DNA of 64,000 nt from Thiorhodospira sibirica ATCC 700588 (GTDB lineage: Bacteria > Pseudomonadota > Gammaproteobacteria > Ectothiorhodospirales > Ectothiorhodospiraceae). Location: positions 2,599,011 through 2,663,010 of the forward strand of contig NZ_MU255056.1 in the NCBI RefSeq assembly GCF_000227725.2, given 5' to 3'. Below are positions 52,584 through 59,789 of this stretch, piece after piece. The translations under genes were made by a program, and so were the position numbers. The notes under the pieces are model-generated. The model saw nothing but the letters and a program-made list of their open reading frames with translations. It was not told the DNA's origin and did not search any database. How positions within the stretch are numbered: the stretch's first letter is position 1; every line of letters begins with the position of its first letter.

Positions 52584-52930
52584 GATTCCCCCTTCGCTTC
52601 TTTTTTAAGTTTAGCGCATCTCGGCGTTTGTCATAAGGTGATAAGCCGTCAGGGATGATCCAAAGGCAACGGCGTGCCTGATGCATAAAAAGCGACATCA
52701 CGGCCCGCATGGAAGCGGCCATGATCAAGGTATAGCGGCGGAGGTGGCACGTTATCATGCTTGGGATGCGGTTTGCAGAATTACGCACCGCATCAATACC
52801 AATCCCCACAGCAGCTTGCAACGGAGCGCTGTATAAATTATTGCCCCCCGTTTTTTCAGCGTGTTTTAAGCCTGTCTTTTGCATACTGCGCGTGTACTTA
52901 ATCCTTCATCTCTCATCATGGAGACGCCGT
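52584..52930. other. Intergenic region before the cytochrome b561 operon
   Basis: About 350 bp; AT content rises towards the b561 start (around 52825-52920). No clear -10/-35 pair could be fixed. A TGGCAC at 52745 was considered as sigma-54 and rejected. Confidence 0.4.
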
Positions 52931-53497
52931 ATGAGCTCGCAACAAAACATCAAAATCTGGGATGCCCTGGTGCGTTCCTTTCACTGGTTCGTGGTGCTGG
53001 CCGTGTTGGTCGCCTGGCTGAGTGCCGACGATTATCTGGAGATACATACCTTTGCCGGCTATGCGATTTTCTTTTTAGTGGGCTTGCGTATCTTGTGGGG
53101 GATCATCGGCCCCACCCATGCCCGTTTTCATGATTTTGTCAAACCCCCAACACAGGCTGGCAGCTATCTTTTCGGCCTGATACAGAGCAAGGCCCCCCGT
53201 TTTCTCGGACATAACCCGGCTGCGGGATGGATGATTCTGCTGTTGTTAACGGTGTTGCTATTGGTGGCCATCAGTGGCGTTGCAACCCTGGCGGTTGAGG
53301 AGCACACCGGGCCGTTGGTGCAGGCCTTAAGTGGTCTTTCCCATGCGCAGCGCGAATGGATAGAGGAGGCACACGAATTTTTGGCAAATCTACTGCTGGG
53401 CTTGATTGCTTTACATATCGCGGGGGTACTGCTCAGCAGCTTAGTACACCGCGAAAACCTGATTATGTCGATGATTACTGGCTATAAACGCCAATAA
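52931..53497 (+). CDS. Cytochrome b561 family protein
   Basis: 188 residues from the ATG at 52931 with GGAG 8 nt upstream. Bacterial b561: four helices at about 16-32, 36-60, 99-120 and 147-172. Candidate haem-b ligands are His18 (RSFHWF), His39 (EIHTFAGY), His148 (EEAHEF) and His162 (ALHIAGV). It should carry electrons across the inner membrane between quinol and periplasmic partners. First gene of the set with PepSY, haem protein and two-component genes. Confidence 0.92.
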   Translation: MSSQQNIKIWDALVRSFHWFVVLAVLVAWLSADDYLEIHTFAGYAIFFLVGLRILWGIIGPTHARFHDFVKPPTQAGSYLFGLIQSKAPRFLGHNPAAGWMILLLLTVLLLVAISGVATLAVEEHTGPLVQALSGLSHAQREWIEEAHEFLANLLLGLIALHIAGVLLSSLVHRENLIMSMITGYKRQ

Positions 53498-53522
53498 TGC
53501 GTGTTTTTAACCCAAACCTGAG

Positions 53523-53861
53523 ATGACGATAATGATGCGTAAAAAATCCCGTTATGCCCTGATTCCGATGACCGTATTACTGTTTAGTGCGGTAGTGAGC
53601 TTGAGCCCGCCGGTCTTTGCCAGCGATAAGCTGTCGCAAACCGAGGTTCGTGAGCTGCGTCAAAACGGTACGATTTTGTCCATGGAAAGCATTTTAGCCA
53701 AAACGCGCACGGTGCAACCCGGCGATGTAGTGGAGATTGAACTGGATCGCGAAGACGGGAGATACGTCTATGAAGTTAAGCTGATTGATGCGCAGGATCG
53801 TTTCCATAAGCTTTATCTGGATGCCGGTTCTGGGGAGGTTATTCGTCAGAAAACGCGCTAA
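53523..53861 (+). CDS. PepSY-domain periplasmic protein
   Basis: 112 residues with a signal peptide (hydrophobic 12-30, cleavage likely after FAS near 34). PepSY domain about 38-112: LSQTEVRELRQNGTILSMESILAK then VVEIELDREDGRYVYEVKLID and YLDAGSGEVIRQKTR. Proteins of this kind next to QseC/PhoQ-like kinases often act as periplasmic regulators of the sensor. 25 bp after b561. Alternative starts at 53532 and 53535. Confidence 0.9.
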   Translation: MTIMMRKKSRYALIPMTVLLFSAVVSLSPPVFASDKLSQTEVRELRQNGTILSMESILAKTRTVQPGDVVEIELDREDGRYVYEVKLIDAQDRFHKLYLDAGSGEVIRQKTR

Positions 53862-53949
53862 GCCGCTATCGCTGCCCTGGTGAGTCAAGAAATCATCAGG
53901 GCAGTTGTATGTTGTATTCATTGAGGTTTTTTATGGGAGCGGGATATTT

Positions 53950-54462
53950 ATGCAGCGCATATCACGACATATTTTGCTGGCCGTGCTGCTGGGCATACCG
54001 TCGGTAGGGATGGCGGGTGCATCGGCAAATACCTTGATTGAAAGCCGTGCCATTGCCGAACAGCTTGAACAGCGTTTACAGCGCGACTTAAAAGAGAGGC
54101 TTGAGTCGGCATCCGGGCAGGGGGCGCTGGCGCGGTGTCATCAAATAACCCAGGCGATTCTGGAGCAGATGTCTGCAGACACCGGCTTTACCATCAAGCG
54201 CATCAGTTTATATGCCCAGCATCCCCAGACTCAGCCGGAGCGCTGGGAAAAGGTTGTGCTGGAAACCTTTAACGCACAGTTAAAAGCCGGTGATGCCCTT
54301 GAAAAACTGGAGTTTTATGAACGCCATCAGCACAAAACGACGACTGAGTTTCACTATATGCGCGCACTCCAGCCCGCCGGGGTGTGCGCACACTGCCACC
54401 AATCGCCGCAGGGCGCGGTGGTGGGTGCGCTCAGCGTGGTCAAGATTGTGCCGCTGCGCTGA
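53950..54462 (+). CDS. DUF3365 c-type haem protein
   Basis: 170 residues from the ATG at 53950. Signal peptide 1-22 (HILLAVLLGIPSVGMA). One CXXCH haem site, CAHCH at 146-150, near the C-terminus, plus Cys63. The pattern RALQPAGVCAHCHQSPQGAVVGALSV matches DUF3365/Tll0287-like sensor or redox domains. It probably sits in the periplasm and could pass electrons to or from cytochrome b561, or sense redox for the kinase. Both are inferred. Confidence 0.87.
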   Translation: MQRISRHILLAVLLGIPSVGMAGASANTLIESRAIAEQLEQRLQRDLKERLESASGQGALARCHQITQAILEQMSADTGFTIKRISLYAQHPQTQPERWEKVVLETFNAQLKAGDALEKLEFYERHQHKTTTEFHYMRALQPAGVCAHCHQSPQGAVVGALSVVKIVPLR

Positions 54463-54540
54463 CTGCCATGATGAGCATGCGGCGGTAGCGCTCAGTTACC
54501 GCCGGGAGTTTTTTGCCAACCGCGACGGTATTTACACATT

Positions 54541-55212
54541 ATGCGTCTGCTTTTGATTGAAGATGATGCCCTGCTTGGCGCACGACTGAAACAGCGCCTG
54601 CAAAAGGCCGGTTATGCCGTCGATTGGCGAACCTGTGGGGTTGATGGGCTGCATGAGGGGCACTATGAACCCTATGATGTCATCGTCTTGGATCTGGGCC
54701 TGCCGGATATCTCCGGCATGGAGGTATTAGCCCGCTGGCGCAATGCCGGGGTCGATACCCCGGTCTTGATTCTGACGGCCCGCGATGGCTGGAGCGAACG
54801 GGTGGCCGGTCTGCATGCCGGTGCTGATGATTACCTGGGCAAGCCTTTTAAAACCGAGGAATTGCTGGCACGTCTGCAGGCGATTTTGCGGCGCAGTGCC
54901 AAGGTCTATGCACTGGAGCTGCGCATCGGTCGGCTGCGTCTGGATGAGCAGCGTCAGTGCCTGGTGGATGAACAGCAACAGGCTATCGCCCTGACCGCCA
55001 CTGAGTTTCGCCTGCTACGCTATTTTTTACGCAACCCCGAGGTGGTGCTGTCCAAGACGCAATTAAGCGAGCATATCTATGATGATCAGGACACCCGCGA
55101 CAGCAATATCCTGGAGGTGTATATCCGCCGCTTGCGTGAGCGCATTGGTGTGGATGCCATTCAGACACATCGCGGCAAAGGCTACAGCCTCAATCCCCGT
55201 GCCCTGGAATAA
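54541..55212 (+). CDS. OmpR/PhoB-family response regulator (QseB/PmrA type)
   Basis: 223 residues. Receiver domain 1-115 with Asp51 phosphoacceptor (VIVLDLGLPD), acidic pair EDD at 7-9, Thr79 (LTARD) and Lys101 (GKPFK). Winged-helix DNA-binding domain 125-220: LTATEFRLLRYFLRNPEVVLSKTQL and LEVYIRRLRERIGVDAIQTHRGKGY. Stop 3 bp before the kinase gene, so the two form a two-component system. Target unknown; the upstream b561/PepSY/haem genes are likely candidates. Confidence 0.95.
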   Translation: MRLLLIEDDALLGARLKQRLQKAGYAVDWRTCGVDGLHEGHYEPYDVIVLDLGLPDISGMEVLARWRNAGVDTPVLILTARDGWSERVAGLHAGADDYLGKPFKTEELLARLQAILRRSAKVYALELRIGRLRLDEQRQCLVDEQQQAIALTATEFRLLRYFLRNPEVVLSKTQLSEHIYDDQDTRDSNILEVYIRRLRERIGVDAIQTHRGKGYSLNPRALE

Positions 55213-55215
55213 ACC

Positions 55216-56541
55216 ATGTATTCATTGCGCCAGCGCCTGATTATCCTGCTGACCGTAGGGCTGGGGACGGTCTTTATCATCGTGGGGCTAGTCCTGCACG
55301 CTCAGCTCAAAACCCTGGTCGAAACCTATGTTTTGTCGCGGCTGGAACATGATGCCGATATGCTTTATGCCAAGGTGCTGGAGACGGCGGATCTGCATCA
55401 TGCCGCGCAGGCCATGAGCACAACCGTCTACGCCTTGCCGCTCTCGGGCCATTATTTTCTGCTGGAACGGGGCACCGAGCAGATGGGATCGCGCTCCTTG
55501 TGGGATGAGGCATTGCACCTGTCACCCCGGCACGCTGAGGCCGCTACAGCAATCATAGAACTCAGCCAATTGGCCGGTCAGCCTTTATTGGTATTACGCA
55601 AGCCCTACGATCTGGACGCAGACACGGTATGGATCACGGTTGCCGAGGATATCAGCATCTTTCAGCAGACCCTGGAAAGCCTGCGGGGATTTTTGCTGGT
55701 GGGTTTAAGCGCTGCATTGCTGGGGCTATTTATAGTACATAGCCTGATGATCCGGCGGGCGCTGCGTCCGCTGGATGAGGCGATTATCGCCTGCCAACGC
55801 ATCGAACGCGGCGAGGCGGTCACGCTCCCGCTGCGCGGTCCGCAAGAAATTGTGCCCTTGCTGCAAGCGGTGAATCAGCTGGCGCATTACCATAATCGGC
55901 GCCTGACCCGTATTCGCCACGCCCTGGCTAACCTCTCCCATGCCCTGAAAACCCCCTTAACCCGGCTGTATCAGCTCGTCGAGATGCAGGAATCATCCAG
56001 CGTGGACGCACAGGCGATGCACAGCGAACTGGATGCCATGCACCACAGCATTGACCGTGAGCTACGCCGTGCCCAGCTTGCGGGCGGCGGCTTTGGCACC
56101 CATCGCTTTATGCTCGCCCCCCAGCTGCGCGAACTGGCGACAGCCCTGCAGCGCTTATATGCAGAACGCATCACCTTGCACATGGAGATTCCGCCCCGCG
56201 AGTATCCGCTGGATGCACAGGACATGCTGGAGCTGTTCGGCAATCTGCTCGATAACGCCCATAAATGGGCCCGCAGCACCGTCACCCTGCGGGTGCTGGA
56301 TACCCCGCAGTTGGCCTTTTATATCGAAGACGACGGCCCCGGTATGAACCCGGCCACCCTGGAACGCCTGGCCAAAGGGGTGATGCGCTACGATGAAAAA
56401 CCCCTCGGACATGGCCTGGGCCTGTTGATCGTTCACGATATCGTTGCGCAATACGCAGGACACATTGAATTCAGCCGCTCAGACACCCTCGGCGGATTAA
56501 GCGTCTATGTCCGCTTATTTGATGCCCAATTGCCGCCATAA
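55216..56541 (+). CDS. Sensor histidine kinase paired with the upstream regulator
   Basis: 441 residues. Membrane helices at about 8-28 and 158-177 enclose a periplasmic sensor of 130 residues with no known cofactor site. HAMP at about 178-230. Phosphoacceptor His242 (LANLSHALKTPLTR). N box LFGNLLDNAHKWA, G1 IEDDGPGM and G2 GHGLGLLIV are intact. PhoQ/QseC-like. A PepSY protein encoded three genes upstream is a plausible modulator. Confidence 0.95.
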   Translation: MYSLRQRLIILLTVGLGTVFIIVGLVLHAQLKTLVETYVLSRLEHDADMLYAKVLETADLHHAAQAMSTTVYALPLSGHYFLLERGTEQMGSRSLWDEALHLSPRHAEAATAIIELSQLAGQPLLVLRKPYDLDADTVWITVAEDISIFQQTLESLRGFLLVGLSAALLGLFIVHSLMIRRALRPLDEAIIACQRIERGEAVTLPLRGPQEIVPLLQAVNQLAHYHNRRLTRIRHALANLSHALKTPLTRLYQLVEMQESSSVDAQAMHSELDAMHHSIDRELRRAQLAGGGFGTHRFMLAPQLRELATALQRLYAERITLHMEIPPREYPLDAQDMLELFGNLLDNAHKWARSTVTLRVLDTPQLAFYIEDDGPGMNPATLERLAKGVMRYDEKPLGHGLGLLIVHDIVAQYAGHIEFSRSDTLGGLSVYVRLFDAQLPP

Positions 56542-57116: not shown

Positions 57117-59789
57117 CTAGGTGTAAGCTCCACAGATCTGGTTGCGTCCTTGATGTTTGGCGCGGTAGAGGGCTTGGTCGGCGCATTCCTGGAGGTGGCG
57201 CAGATCGGTCTTGGTGCTGTCTGGTCCATGGGTGGCGACCCCAATGCTTAAAGTGACCACCGAACCAACGCTGGAGCGGGCATGGGGGATGGCCAGCGCC
57301 TCCACGGCGACGCGCATCTGCTCGGCAAGATGGAGCGCGCCATCAATCTCGGTTTCCGGCAGCAGGGCGACAAATTCCTCGCCGCCATAGCGCGCCACCA
57401 GGTCTAGCGGACGTTCGCCACAGTGCGCAAGCGCTTGCGCCACCTGCCTGAGACAATCATCCCCCGCGCCGTGGCCATAATGATCGTTGTATTGCTTGAA
57501 GTGATCGATATCAATGAGTACCAGAGACAGGGGCAGACCGGTGCGCAGCACACGCTTCCATTCGACCTCCGCGCGCTGATCGAAATAGCGCCGATTGGCA
57601 ATGCCGGTGAGGCCGTCTTGCATCGAGAGCTTTTCAAGCAGCTCGGTCTTGAGCTTGAGTTCCCGCTCCACCTGCTTGCGCTCAGTGATCTCCTGTTCCA
57701 GCGCGAAATTAGTTTCTTGCAACAAGGCTTCGGCTTGTTTTCGCACGGTCGCATCTTGCTGATAGCCAAACCAGCGGGTGTCGCCATTGTCAAAGAACAT
57801 CGGCGTGGATTCAATCAGCATAAAGCGAATTTCGCCATTGATAATCACCCGCCCTTCCCAGTGAAATGATCGGCGTTCACGCACGACGTGTTCATTCAGT
57901 TGTTTAAATTCCTCGAACTCATCCGGGTGAATCACATCCCAGGCTAGAAACGCATTGTTCAGCAATGCTTCGCGGCGTATTTGATTCATGACACACCAGC
58001 TATCGCTGACATACTCGAATTCCATCGTACCATTGGCGCGGAGCCAAAACACATAAACCCCTACGGACACGCGATTAACGAGATCGTTGAAACGGCGTAA
58101 ACTCTCGCTCAAAGCCTCCTCGGCACGCTTGCGATCAGTCACATCCGCAAGCACCCCTTCCCAGACGGTTGTTCCGTCAGACAGGGTGCGGGGAAAGGAT
58201 TCAGCGGTGATCCAGCGCACTTCATTTTGCACCACCACCCTCGTTTCACCAAAAAACGGTTTCTTTTTGTTGAAGGTTTCTACATTCAGCGCGACCCACG
58301 CCTCAAAGTCGTCTGGATGCACGCAGGCAAAGCCCTTCATGGGATCTGAGGCGGCTTCTTCCCGCGTGACTCCAGTCAGTTCCAGAAAACGACGGCTCAT
58401 AAAGGCAAAATGCGCCATGCCGCCGTCTGCGGGTTGTACCATGGTGTAGGTGCCGACCGGGATATTTTCCGTCAGTTCATAGGCGGTTTTTTCCAAGCGT
58501 TGCTCAGCAATGCGCAGGGCTTCTTCTGTTCGCTTTTGCGCACTCTGGTCATACATATAGCTGCGAATATTCGTCAGTTGGCCGGCTTTGTTACGCAGCA
58601 ACACGGTAAAATCATACACCCAGAAATACTGACCCGATCGGGTTTTTAAGCGATAGGACTCCTCGAAGCGATCAATGTGCTCGGCAATATTCTGTTTGAG
58701 CCGACTGACGACAGCCTCGGCATCATCTGGATGGATCAAAGCCGGATAAGAAAACTCAGGCTGCTGCATCTCGGCCTGGCTGTAGCCAAGAATGCGTTCG
58801 ATATTCGAGGAGGCGCGCTTAATTGGCCAGTGACCATGCTGCTCCGCCTCCCATTCCATGGTGAACACCGGTCCCTCGGCAAACAGATCCCGCTCTCGTT
58901 TCAGCGCATCTCCGGCTTTCCTGTTTGCCGCCATCAGCAAAACGATGACGGCAACAAAGGTTAGGATGGCCGTCGCGACGACAAGATAAATCCACATCAC
59001 CGGGGCGGAAAACACCGAGTAAGCACTCCAGCCACTAGCGGGGATTGCCGCCATCTGCCAGTTTCCGTGGGGGAGTTCGAGCCACTGGGTGACCGGCTGG
59101 TTTTCAAAGACCCTTGGGTCACCAAAAAAGACCTCGCCCTGTTCGCCGAGGGCATCGCGCCCCCGGATGCTGAGGCGCACGTCATTGTGTTGCGTGATAC
59201 CCGCGCCGGCAAAAATGGCATCGGCGTTCATGACCACTGAGGCAAAGCCCCAAAACTGTTCCTGACCCGTTGCCGCATCGGCAACATGAATAGGGATGCG
59301 GGCAATCAGGCCCTCGCCGCCCTGCACCAGGGTCAGCGGTCCGGCAAGGACGATCTGGTTCAGATCCAGTGCTCGCTGGACAGCCTCAAGCTGCTCAGGA
59401 ACGGTTCGATAGTCCAGGCCAATGGCCGCTTCATTGCCTGCGATGGGATGCATGAGGCGCATTACCATGTCACGCGCCAGGCCGATGTTGCGCAAATCGC
59501 TTTGCTCCTTGAACACCACGGTCATGGCGCGGGTGAAATCTTCCTGTGTCAGCTCAGGATTCATCGCTACCAGGGCTTTCACCCCCGAAACGGCAAAGAT
59601 ATTCGAGTAGATGCGAATCTTTAGCGCTGTCGTCAGCACGTCGAGTTGCTGTTTGACGGTTTCTATTTCCTGCTGCTGGTGGCGTTCGGATTCAAAGCGA
59701 AACAACTGTGCGCCAATCAGCACGAATAAACTCAGCAACACCGCGAAGAGCGCTGTTCCCAATGCCGTCAGATGATGTTCATGTTTCAT
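57117..59789 (-). CDS. Membrane diguanylate cyclase: CHASE, three PAS, GGDEF
   Basis: 890 residues. Helix 1 at about 11-31, periplasmic CHASE domain (about 40-260: GVKALVAMNPELTQEDFTRAM, IGLARDMVMRLMHPIAG), helix 2 at about 267-290. Three PAS/PAC units follow (about 305-425, 440-560, 570-695), each with HPDD- or HPDE-type motifs, then a GGDEF domain (about 725-885) with the active site GGEEF at 802-806 and the inhibitory I-site RPLD at 793-796, five residues before it. It is predicted to make c-di-GMP with product inhibition. No EAL domain. The PilZ protein at 992-1357 is a possible receptor. Confidence 0.94.
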   Translation of the reverse strand: MKHEHHLTALGTALFAVLLSLFVLIGAQLFRFESERHQQQEIETVKQQLDVLTTALKIRIYSNIFAVSGVKALVAMNPELTQEDFTRAMTVVFKEQSDLRNIGLARDMVMRLMHPIAGNEAAIGLDYRTVPEQLEAVQRALDLNQIVLAGPLTLVQGGEGLIARIPIHVADAATGQEQFWGFASVVMNADAIFAGAGITQHNDVRLSIRGRDALGEQGEVFFGDPRVFENQPVTQWLELPHGNWQMAAIPASGWSAYSVFSAPVMWIYLVVATAILTFVAVIVLLMAANRKAGDALKRERDLFAEGPVFTMEWEAEQHGHWPIKRASSNIERILGYSQAEMQQPEFSYPALIHPDDAEAVVSRLKQNIAEHIDRFEESYRLKTRSGQYFWVYDFTVLLRNKAGQLTNIRSYMYDQSAQKRTEEALRIAEQRLEKTAYELTENIPVGTYTMVQPADGGMAHFAFMSRRFLELTGVTREEAASDPMKGFACVHPDDFEAWVALNVETFNKKKPFFGETRVVVQNEVRWITAESFPRTLSDGTTVWEGVLADVTDRKRAEEALSESLRRFNDLVNRVSVGVYVFWLRANGTMEFEYVSDSWCVMNQIRREALLNNAFLAWDVIHPDEFEEFKQLNEHVVRERRSFHWEGRVIINGEIRFMLIESTPMFFDNGDTRWFGYQQDATVRKQAEALLQETNFALEQEITERKQVERELKLKTELLEKLSMQDGLTGIANRRYFDQRAEVEWKRVLRTGLPLSLVLIDIDHFKQYNDHYGHGAGDDCLRQVAQALAHCGERPLDLVARYGGEEFVALLPETEIDGALHLAEQMRVAVEALAIPHARSSVGSVVTLSIGVATHGPDSTKTDLRHLQECADQALYRAKHQGRNQICGAYT

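Follow-up and report, generated by a model that had tools for sequence, protein, structure and literature searches.

Five genes at positions 52931-56541 of a 64-kb stretch of Thiorhodospira sibirica ATCC 700588 (NZ_MU255056.1; the whole stretch analysed is called the window below) form, as judged from sequence, a four-gene module of known kind with an atypical haem gene as an added part. The module consists of a cytochrome b561, a small secreted PepSY-domain protein, an OmpR-type response regulator and a sensor kinase. It is conserved together with a shared upstream direct repeat, and here a shortened gene of the sCache_heme family stands between the PepSY and regulator genes. We tentatively regard the locus as a form of the SHP-operon SK1/Orf1 module (PMC2909971) extended by this haem gene, a reading that, with its proposed workings, we place somewhat below an even chance. 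The initial annotation had listed five same-strand genes with gaps of 3-88 bp, and its coordinates and gaps check out. The five genes lie on the plus strand with intergenic gaps of 25, 88, 78 and 3 bp, gene identities being taken from Pfam profiles. The features are as follows.

52854-52870, plus strand: predicted box for the regulator, TTTCAG-CGTGT-TTTAAG, lying 77 bases ahead of the b561 start; position weight matrix score 20.4
52931-53497, plus strand: cytochrome b561-type membrane protein, 188 residues (Pfam Ni_hydr_CYTB, 7.7e-26)
53523-53861, plus strand: small secreted PepSY-domain protein, 112 residues, Orf1/DbfQ-like (Pfam PepSY, 7.3e-13)
53871-53905, plus strand: strong hairpin between the PepSY and haem genes, 13-bp stem and 9-nt loop
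53950-54462, plus strand: stand-alone Tll0287-like (sCache_heme, formerly DUF3365) periplasmic c-type haem protein, 170 residues (Pfam, 7.7e-13; one CXXCH)
54480-54514, plus strand: hairpin resembling a terminator (54480-54504) with GGAG and T6 after it, in the gap between haem and regulator genes
54541-55212, plus strand: OmpR-type response regulator, 223 residues (Response_reg and Trans_reg_C)
55216-56541, plus strand: SK1-type sensor kinase, 441 residues (HAMP, weak HisKA, HATPase_c)

Conservation of the four-gene module

Homologues were sought in a class set of 369 genomes (107 positive with the PepSY protein, 101 with the haem protein), in a phylum set of 398 genomes that overlaps it (116 and 46 positive, respectively) and in a family set, where 9 of 47 genomes have PepSY; among 58 relatives taken from every rank, 37 have the haem protein. 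The module sample comprised 80 regions from the class set, each surrounding one of the best PepSY matches (weaker ones were left out), 7 family loci, 3 of 17 further loci and the window, giving 91 rows. Six rows (L114, L117, L158, L163, L165, L171) were dropped because a complete regulator-kinase pair was not found beside PepSY, and 85 modules were counted. A same-strand b561 gene is present in 58 of them, window included. By gene content, 34 modules carry b561 only, 24 carry SHP and/or diheme cytochrome c (DHC) genes, 26 carry neither on the same strand, and one, the window, combines b561 with the haem gene. Among the 24, SHP, DHC and b561 occur together in 20 (both SHP and DHC genes are thus found in 20/85 sampled modules), b561 and DHC in three, and DHC with no detected b561 in one (L160); the DUF1924 (SHP) and DHC assignments were verified by Pfam on L014 and L112. 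In three of the 26 modules with neither (L141, L154, L168) a b561 gene lies on the opposite strand. Profiles for SHP (DUF1924) and DHC found no match in the window operon, which is therefore not an SHP operon by gene content.

The PepSY gene adjoins the regulator gene (-20 to +60 bp from the regulator start) in 69 of the 77 modules in which that start could be placed, eight modules having no placeable start. Eight modules depart from this: the window, L177 and six from the family in which gene order is permuted. In L108 and L196-L200, from the window's own family, the quartet is reordered: the kinase gene precedes the regulator gene, and b561 lies at one end or the other. The four genes thus stay together despite rearrangement. 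The sequence comparison indicates that b561, PepSY, regulator and kinase genes are one widespread conserved module, clustering far beyond chance. The claim that all five genes make one module therefore stands for these four and fails for the haem gene, which is missing from the other 84 of the 85 modules, and the five-gene order as a whole is not conserved. Two loci differ in gene structure: in L135 (2481-3743) b561 and diheme cytochrome matches fall within one open frame, and in L168 (1343-3012) a single frame matches DHC and SHP, beside b561 and divergent from the PepSY and two-component genes.

The b561 protein matches PF01292 at 91.4 bits (gathering cut-off 30.1). An alignment of 15 sequences shows no variation at its histidines H18, H39, H94, H148 and H162, which are 95-98% conserved among 58 sequences. 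As a member of the b561 family, the protein should provide an electron link from quinone pool to periplasm. Against the PDB, the b561 profile matches a hydrogenase cytochrome b subunit at 1.3e-08 and, more weakly (4e-05), E. coli cytochrome b561 (PDB 5oc0, also named superoxide oxidase); the latter belongs to the same family by profile but is distant from the window protein. Searches of the PDB by phmmer with the single b561 or haem protein sequence gave no match. A profile search of the host genome found no second PepSY match.

The two-component pair and its predicted box

The pair had been described as QseBC-like, an identity that we reject, as both scores fall far under the NCBIfam equivalog cut-offs (QseB, 190.4 bits against 345; QseC, 72.8 against 475). 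The solved regulators that best match the window regulator include BasR/PmrA and Pseudomonas aeruginosa CarR (=BqsR), and the phospho-acceptor Asp is kept in 85/85 modules. The window kinase has the motifs SGHYF(LL) and (G)SRSLWD, the acceptor His242 and a membrane-proximal RLEHDAD at residues 42-48. The SK1 kinases of SHP operons have a periplasmic domain marked by versions of the motifs SGVYWQ and RSRSLWD, and they always occur with Orf1, an accessory protein of the periplasm (Meyer et al. 2010, PMC2909971). Since the window kinase has both SGHYF and SRSLWD, its motifs place the pair in the SK1 type, a kind also seen in DbfQRS/BqsRS; as in other SK1 modules, an Orf1/PepSY gene is in the cluster, though one gene away from the regulator. 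That Orf1 is itself a PepSY protein is suggested by Mariprofundus (L014), whose gene order, b561, DUF1924 (SHP), DHC, PepSY, regulator and kinase, fits the six-gene SHP operon named for that genus (PMC2909971).

An HDx[DE] motif lies just outside the membrane, in the helix after the first membrane segment, in 63 of the 85 kinases: 32/34 from b561-only modules, 20/24 from SHP/DHC modules, the window and 10/26 others. It is found in 53 of the 59 modules with b561/SHP/DHC cytochromes or the haem gene versus 10 of the 26 without. Because deep tree branches lack both the motif and the cytochromes, this association partly reflects ancestry and is to be taken as a lead, not a test. BqsS binds Fe(II) via Glu48 of RE45xxE48N, at a position similar to that of RLEHDAD (PMC12666569). 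The aligned N-terminal 160 residues of the window kinase contain no RExxEN or ExxE Fe(II) motif, RLEHDAD standing there instead. A structure model of the kinase matched kinase cores, and the sensor part was barely covered among the matches listed.

In the regions preceding the first gene of the 85 modules, 5-mers that recur unchanged with a period of 11 are in strong excess (143 versus 25.9 expected), and TTCAG is repeated in this way in 31 of the 85 upstream regions. A weight matrix converged on the direct repeat TTTCAG-N5-TTTCAG, typically starting 60-70 bases before the start codon. The box lies above the 99% level of shuffled regions in 60/85 modules (22 of 24 SHP/DHC, 26 of 34 b561-only, 11 of 26 others, and the window). 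None of 2,550 shuffled upstream regions reached the score of the window box; a third, poorer half-site, TTTTG, lies in register at 52877-52881, and the internal gaps of the window operon hold no such box. Scored by matrices trained without the window, the box obtained 15.7-20.6, a level that 0.34-0.52% of 3,269 genomic control stretches reach. In ten random splits, with the window held out of training, 27-36 of 42 held-out regions exceeded the 99% level of the 3,269 genomic controls.

Since the direct repeat precedes the first gene in most modules, self-regulation is well supported, and the regulator probably drives the first genes and its own operon; position and conservation point to its binding at the predicted box. 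The initial annotation had the regulator control the first three genes and named 52800-52930 as the interval to which it would bind. The conserved predicted box inside that interval favours the proposal, and the hairpins flanking the haem gene call one shared transcript into question. The BqsR operator, TTAAG-N6-TTAAG (PMC4682146), has the same period of 11 but a different half-site, the box here being mostly TTCAG-N6-TTCAG. As a site shared by the modules the BqsR box was rejected, as it occurs in 1/85 upstream regions (regions misplaced for some genes). In the host genome, TTMAG-N6-TTMAG has 24 exact matches versus 4 for the reversed pattern, the best-scoring one lying inside a 781-residue gene and the rest being unconvincing; two identical copies lie 71 bp apart (C4:1977299 and 1977370). 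Across the 64-kb window, with one mismatch allowed, 9 matches against 6.9 by chance represent no excess. Elsewhere in the genome, on the minus strand (L233, ~1375-1516; G000:C4 near 2491641), a box-like repeat, ATTCAGCATCGGTTAAG (score 15.4), precedes a gene for a small class I cytochrome c, a possible second target for the regulator. For a TTTCAG direct repeat linked to a response regulator, one literature search, limited to the text available to it, matched only work on phaseolotoxin.

The sCache_heme gene and its setting

The haem protein scores 49.5 bits against PF11845 (gathering cut-off 24.1). Its haem motif, CAHCH, is at residues 146-150, and C63, C146, C149 and H150 are invariant in a 14-sequence alignment. 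The corresponding profile aligns to Tll0287 (PDB 5b82) at 1e-17, with the Cys63 column paired with a Tll0287 Cys. The Tll0287 haem has Cys/His ligation (PMC12889525), and the same ligation is probable for the window protein. About 22 post-haem residues, including YPxD, are missing from it and are kept in 56/56 other distinct sequences (short loop in 1/57), a survey that drew on the best-scoring loci and not at random. By eye, no frameshift that could account for the missing segment was seen, the frame being open throughout and the overlapping frame containing no such segment. According to a preprint, a stand-alone member of the family with the axial Cys behaves as redox-type, and a signalling-linked member without it binds nitric oxide (NO) tightly (PMC12889525). 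Because the axial Cys63 is kept, as in redox-type stand-alone members, a role as redox partner is more probable for the window protein than gas sensing, with the caution that a protein lacking this segment is not typical of the family. An AlphaFold model built without an alignment adds little, given its mean pLDDT of 57.8 and a best PDB match, again Tll0287, at E 0.018.

When coordinates were compared by eye across the class and phylum sets, the haem gene was found near a PepSY gene in no sampled genome but the window's, with the qualification that many assemblies are fragmented and some links could be missed. The closest other pair seen is ~30 kb apart (G345). In 13 other opened neighbourhoods the haem-protein homologues lie away from the PepSY-kinase module, and a plasmid search with the haem protein returned 13 distant records. 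A search on combined family names, in the literature text available to it, joined the haem family with PepSY nowhere; DUF3365 and cytochrome b561 co-occur in Geobacter work. The host genome has one other Tll0287-like gene (L002 / L214, G000:C4:1239775-1240182), which has the YPxD segment and adjoins a gene resembling, by eye, a cyclic-nucleotide-binding/EAL protein.

In a FastTree tree of regulator, kinase and PepSY, midpoint rooted and with groupings taken without branch support, the group that includes the window also contains Lautropia L004 (where no adjacent b561 was found), own-family modules and G055 modules. The own-family and G055 modules have b561 and no haem-c gene. As the window's nearest tree neighbours lack any haem-c gene, the haem gene looks added to the four-gene module, parting PepSY and regulator genes that usually adjoin. 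There is no sign of recent transfer, GC content being alike and GC content at third codon positions (GC3) being 0.632 against 0.549-0.690 in the other four genes. Of the two gaps flanking the haem gene, the 88-nt one ahead of it has a folding energy of -30 kcal/mol (z = -3.1; 0/200 shuffles as good) and the 78-nt one after it -27 kcal/mol (z = -2.2); over the region scanned, the terminator search found 5 sites in all, no more than the 5.3 expected. The first hairpin occurs once in the genome, so that an origin from a repeated element was rejected, and the gaps gave no Rfam match. By eye, no clear Shine-Dalgarno sequence precedes the regulator start. Because of the hairpins and this poorly marked start, expression of regulator and kinase may differ in level from that of the first three genes.

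Competing readings and relation to known systems

In the reading we favour, the phosphorylated regulator would bind the box and raise its own operon. The PepSY protein would bind the periplasmic domain of the kinase and keep it in phosphatase mode, and an envelope signal (metal, redox or damage) would free the kinase from this hold. Cytochrome b561 would move electrons between the quinone pool and the periplasm, and the haem protein would be a periplasmic electron partner made with b561, in the role that diheme cytochrome/SHP has elsewhere, and not a direct kinase input. The PepSY protein likely acts on the kinase as a brake by analogy with DbfQ, which binds the DbfS sensor with a dissociation constant of 30 nM and probably biases it towards phosphatase activity; the DbfQRS operon is also positively self-regulated (PMC12714742). 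The earlier suggestion that the haem or the PepSY protein informs the kinase thus gains a precedent for PepSY in DbfQ-DbfS (PMC12714742) and loses ground for the haem protein, given its absence from 84/85 modules and its redox-type axial Cys.

Several observations weigh against this reading. The haem gene is linked to the module in no other sampled genome, which leaves its role without co-conservation support, and the protein lacks a segment that its relatives have, Tll0287 included. The possibility that the haem gene was swapped in for SHP/DHC was rejected, as the nearest tree modules have neither. In addition, with two hairpins and a regulator start that is poorly marked, the regulator and kinase genes may not be coupled to the first genes.

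An unlikely but credible alternative is that the locus encodes an ordinary two-component system for envelope stress or Fe(II), with b561 as a mere target gene and no sensing role. DbfRS responds to outer-membrane damage and not to iron (PMC12714742), BqsS senses Fe(II) (PMC12666569), and 27/85 modules have no same-strand b561, all of which suit such a system. However, b561 stays with the module despite permuted order (L108, L196-L200), and the kinase HDx[DE] tracks cytochromes. This alternative is largely compatible with the favoured reading, the split being whether b561 feeds the sensor. We consider it rather unlikely that the haem gene is a passenger between PepSY and regulator, partly insulated by the hairpins and serving a periplasmic redox function of its own, unconnected with b561 or the kinase. 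The unique linkage, a hairpin on each side of the gene, the broken PepSY-regulator adjacency and the homologues away from the module in 13 other neighbourhoods argue for a passenger, but the gene is on the same strand and downstream of the box, resembles its neighbours in GC and GC3 and keeps its haem ligands intact. A bolder proposal, to which we give little probability, is that b561-linked kinases are a distinct class of periplasmic redox/metal sensor, in which the membrane-proximal RLxHDx[DE], close to the position where BqsS binds Fe(II), would carry a metal with a redox state set by b561 from the quinone pool; the kinase would thereby read respiratory electron pressure, and the shortened sCache_heme protein would serve as an extra electron path. 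Least probable is the initial annotation's model of a haem protein that senses periplasmic redox or gas and reports to the kinase directly or via PepSY: tight NO binding by a signalling-linked family member (PMC12889525), a haem pocket that the missing segment might open and the gene's position between PepSY and regulator speak for it, but the gene is absent from 84/85 modules, the axial Cys of redox-type behaviour is retained and interface or partner support for haem-kinase signalling is absent.

The signal and function of the SHP operon were left open in 2010 (PMC2909971). SHP operons can now be tied to the DbfQRS/BqsRS kinases, and conservation of the predicted box across several operon layouts makes the regulon searchable. 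The box, the kinase tie and a kinase motif that tracks cytochromes together make what b561-linked kinases sense a testable question. The window offers a naturally occurring variant, with another c-type haem protein joined to a known kind of module. Its convergent neighbour (57117-59789, minus strand) is a CHASE-PAS-GGDEF protein; since DbfRS of Vibrio cholerae works via cyclic di-GMP (PMC12714742), this GGDEF-bearing neighbourhood may deserve attention.

With the SHP operon (PMC2909971) the window shares a first cytochrome b gene, Orf1 (here PepSY), regulator and SK1 on one strand and the SK1 motifs, but it has no SHP or diheme cytochrome c, and the Tll0287-like protein is encoded between PepSY and regulator, not between b561 and PepSY. 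DbfQRS of V. cholerae likewise has a small secreted PepSY gene, an OmpR-type regulator, a kinase and a self-regulated operon (predicted in the window), and the window encodes a small PepSY-only protein within four genes of a regulator and kinase, as DbfQRS-like systems do (PMC12714742). The main text of that paper does not mention "cytochrome", and the window adds b561 and the haem protein. BqsRS/CarRS of P. aeruginosa (PMC12666569, PMC4682146) shares a CarR-like regulator, PepSY genes by the kinase and a period-11 direct repeat, but the window kinase has RLEHDAD at about the same place and no RExxEN, and the half-sites differ. Finally, Tll0287 and Target 1 of P. putida are stand-alone sCache_heme proteins with CXXCH, an axial Cys and no fused output domain (PMC12889525), like the window protein, which is ~22 residues shorter after the haem motif and is encoded inside a two-component operon.

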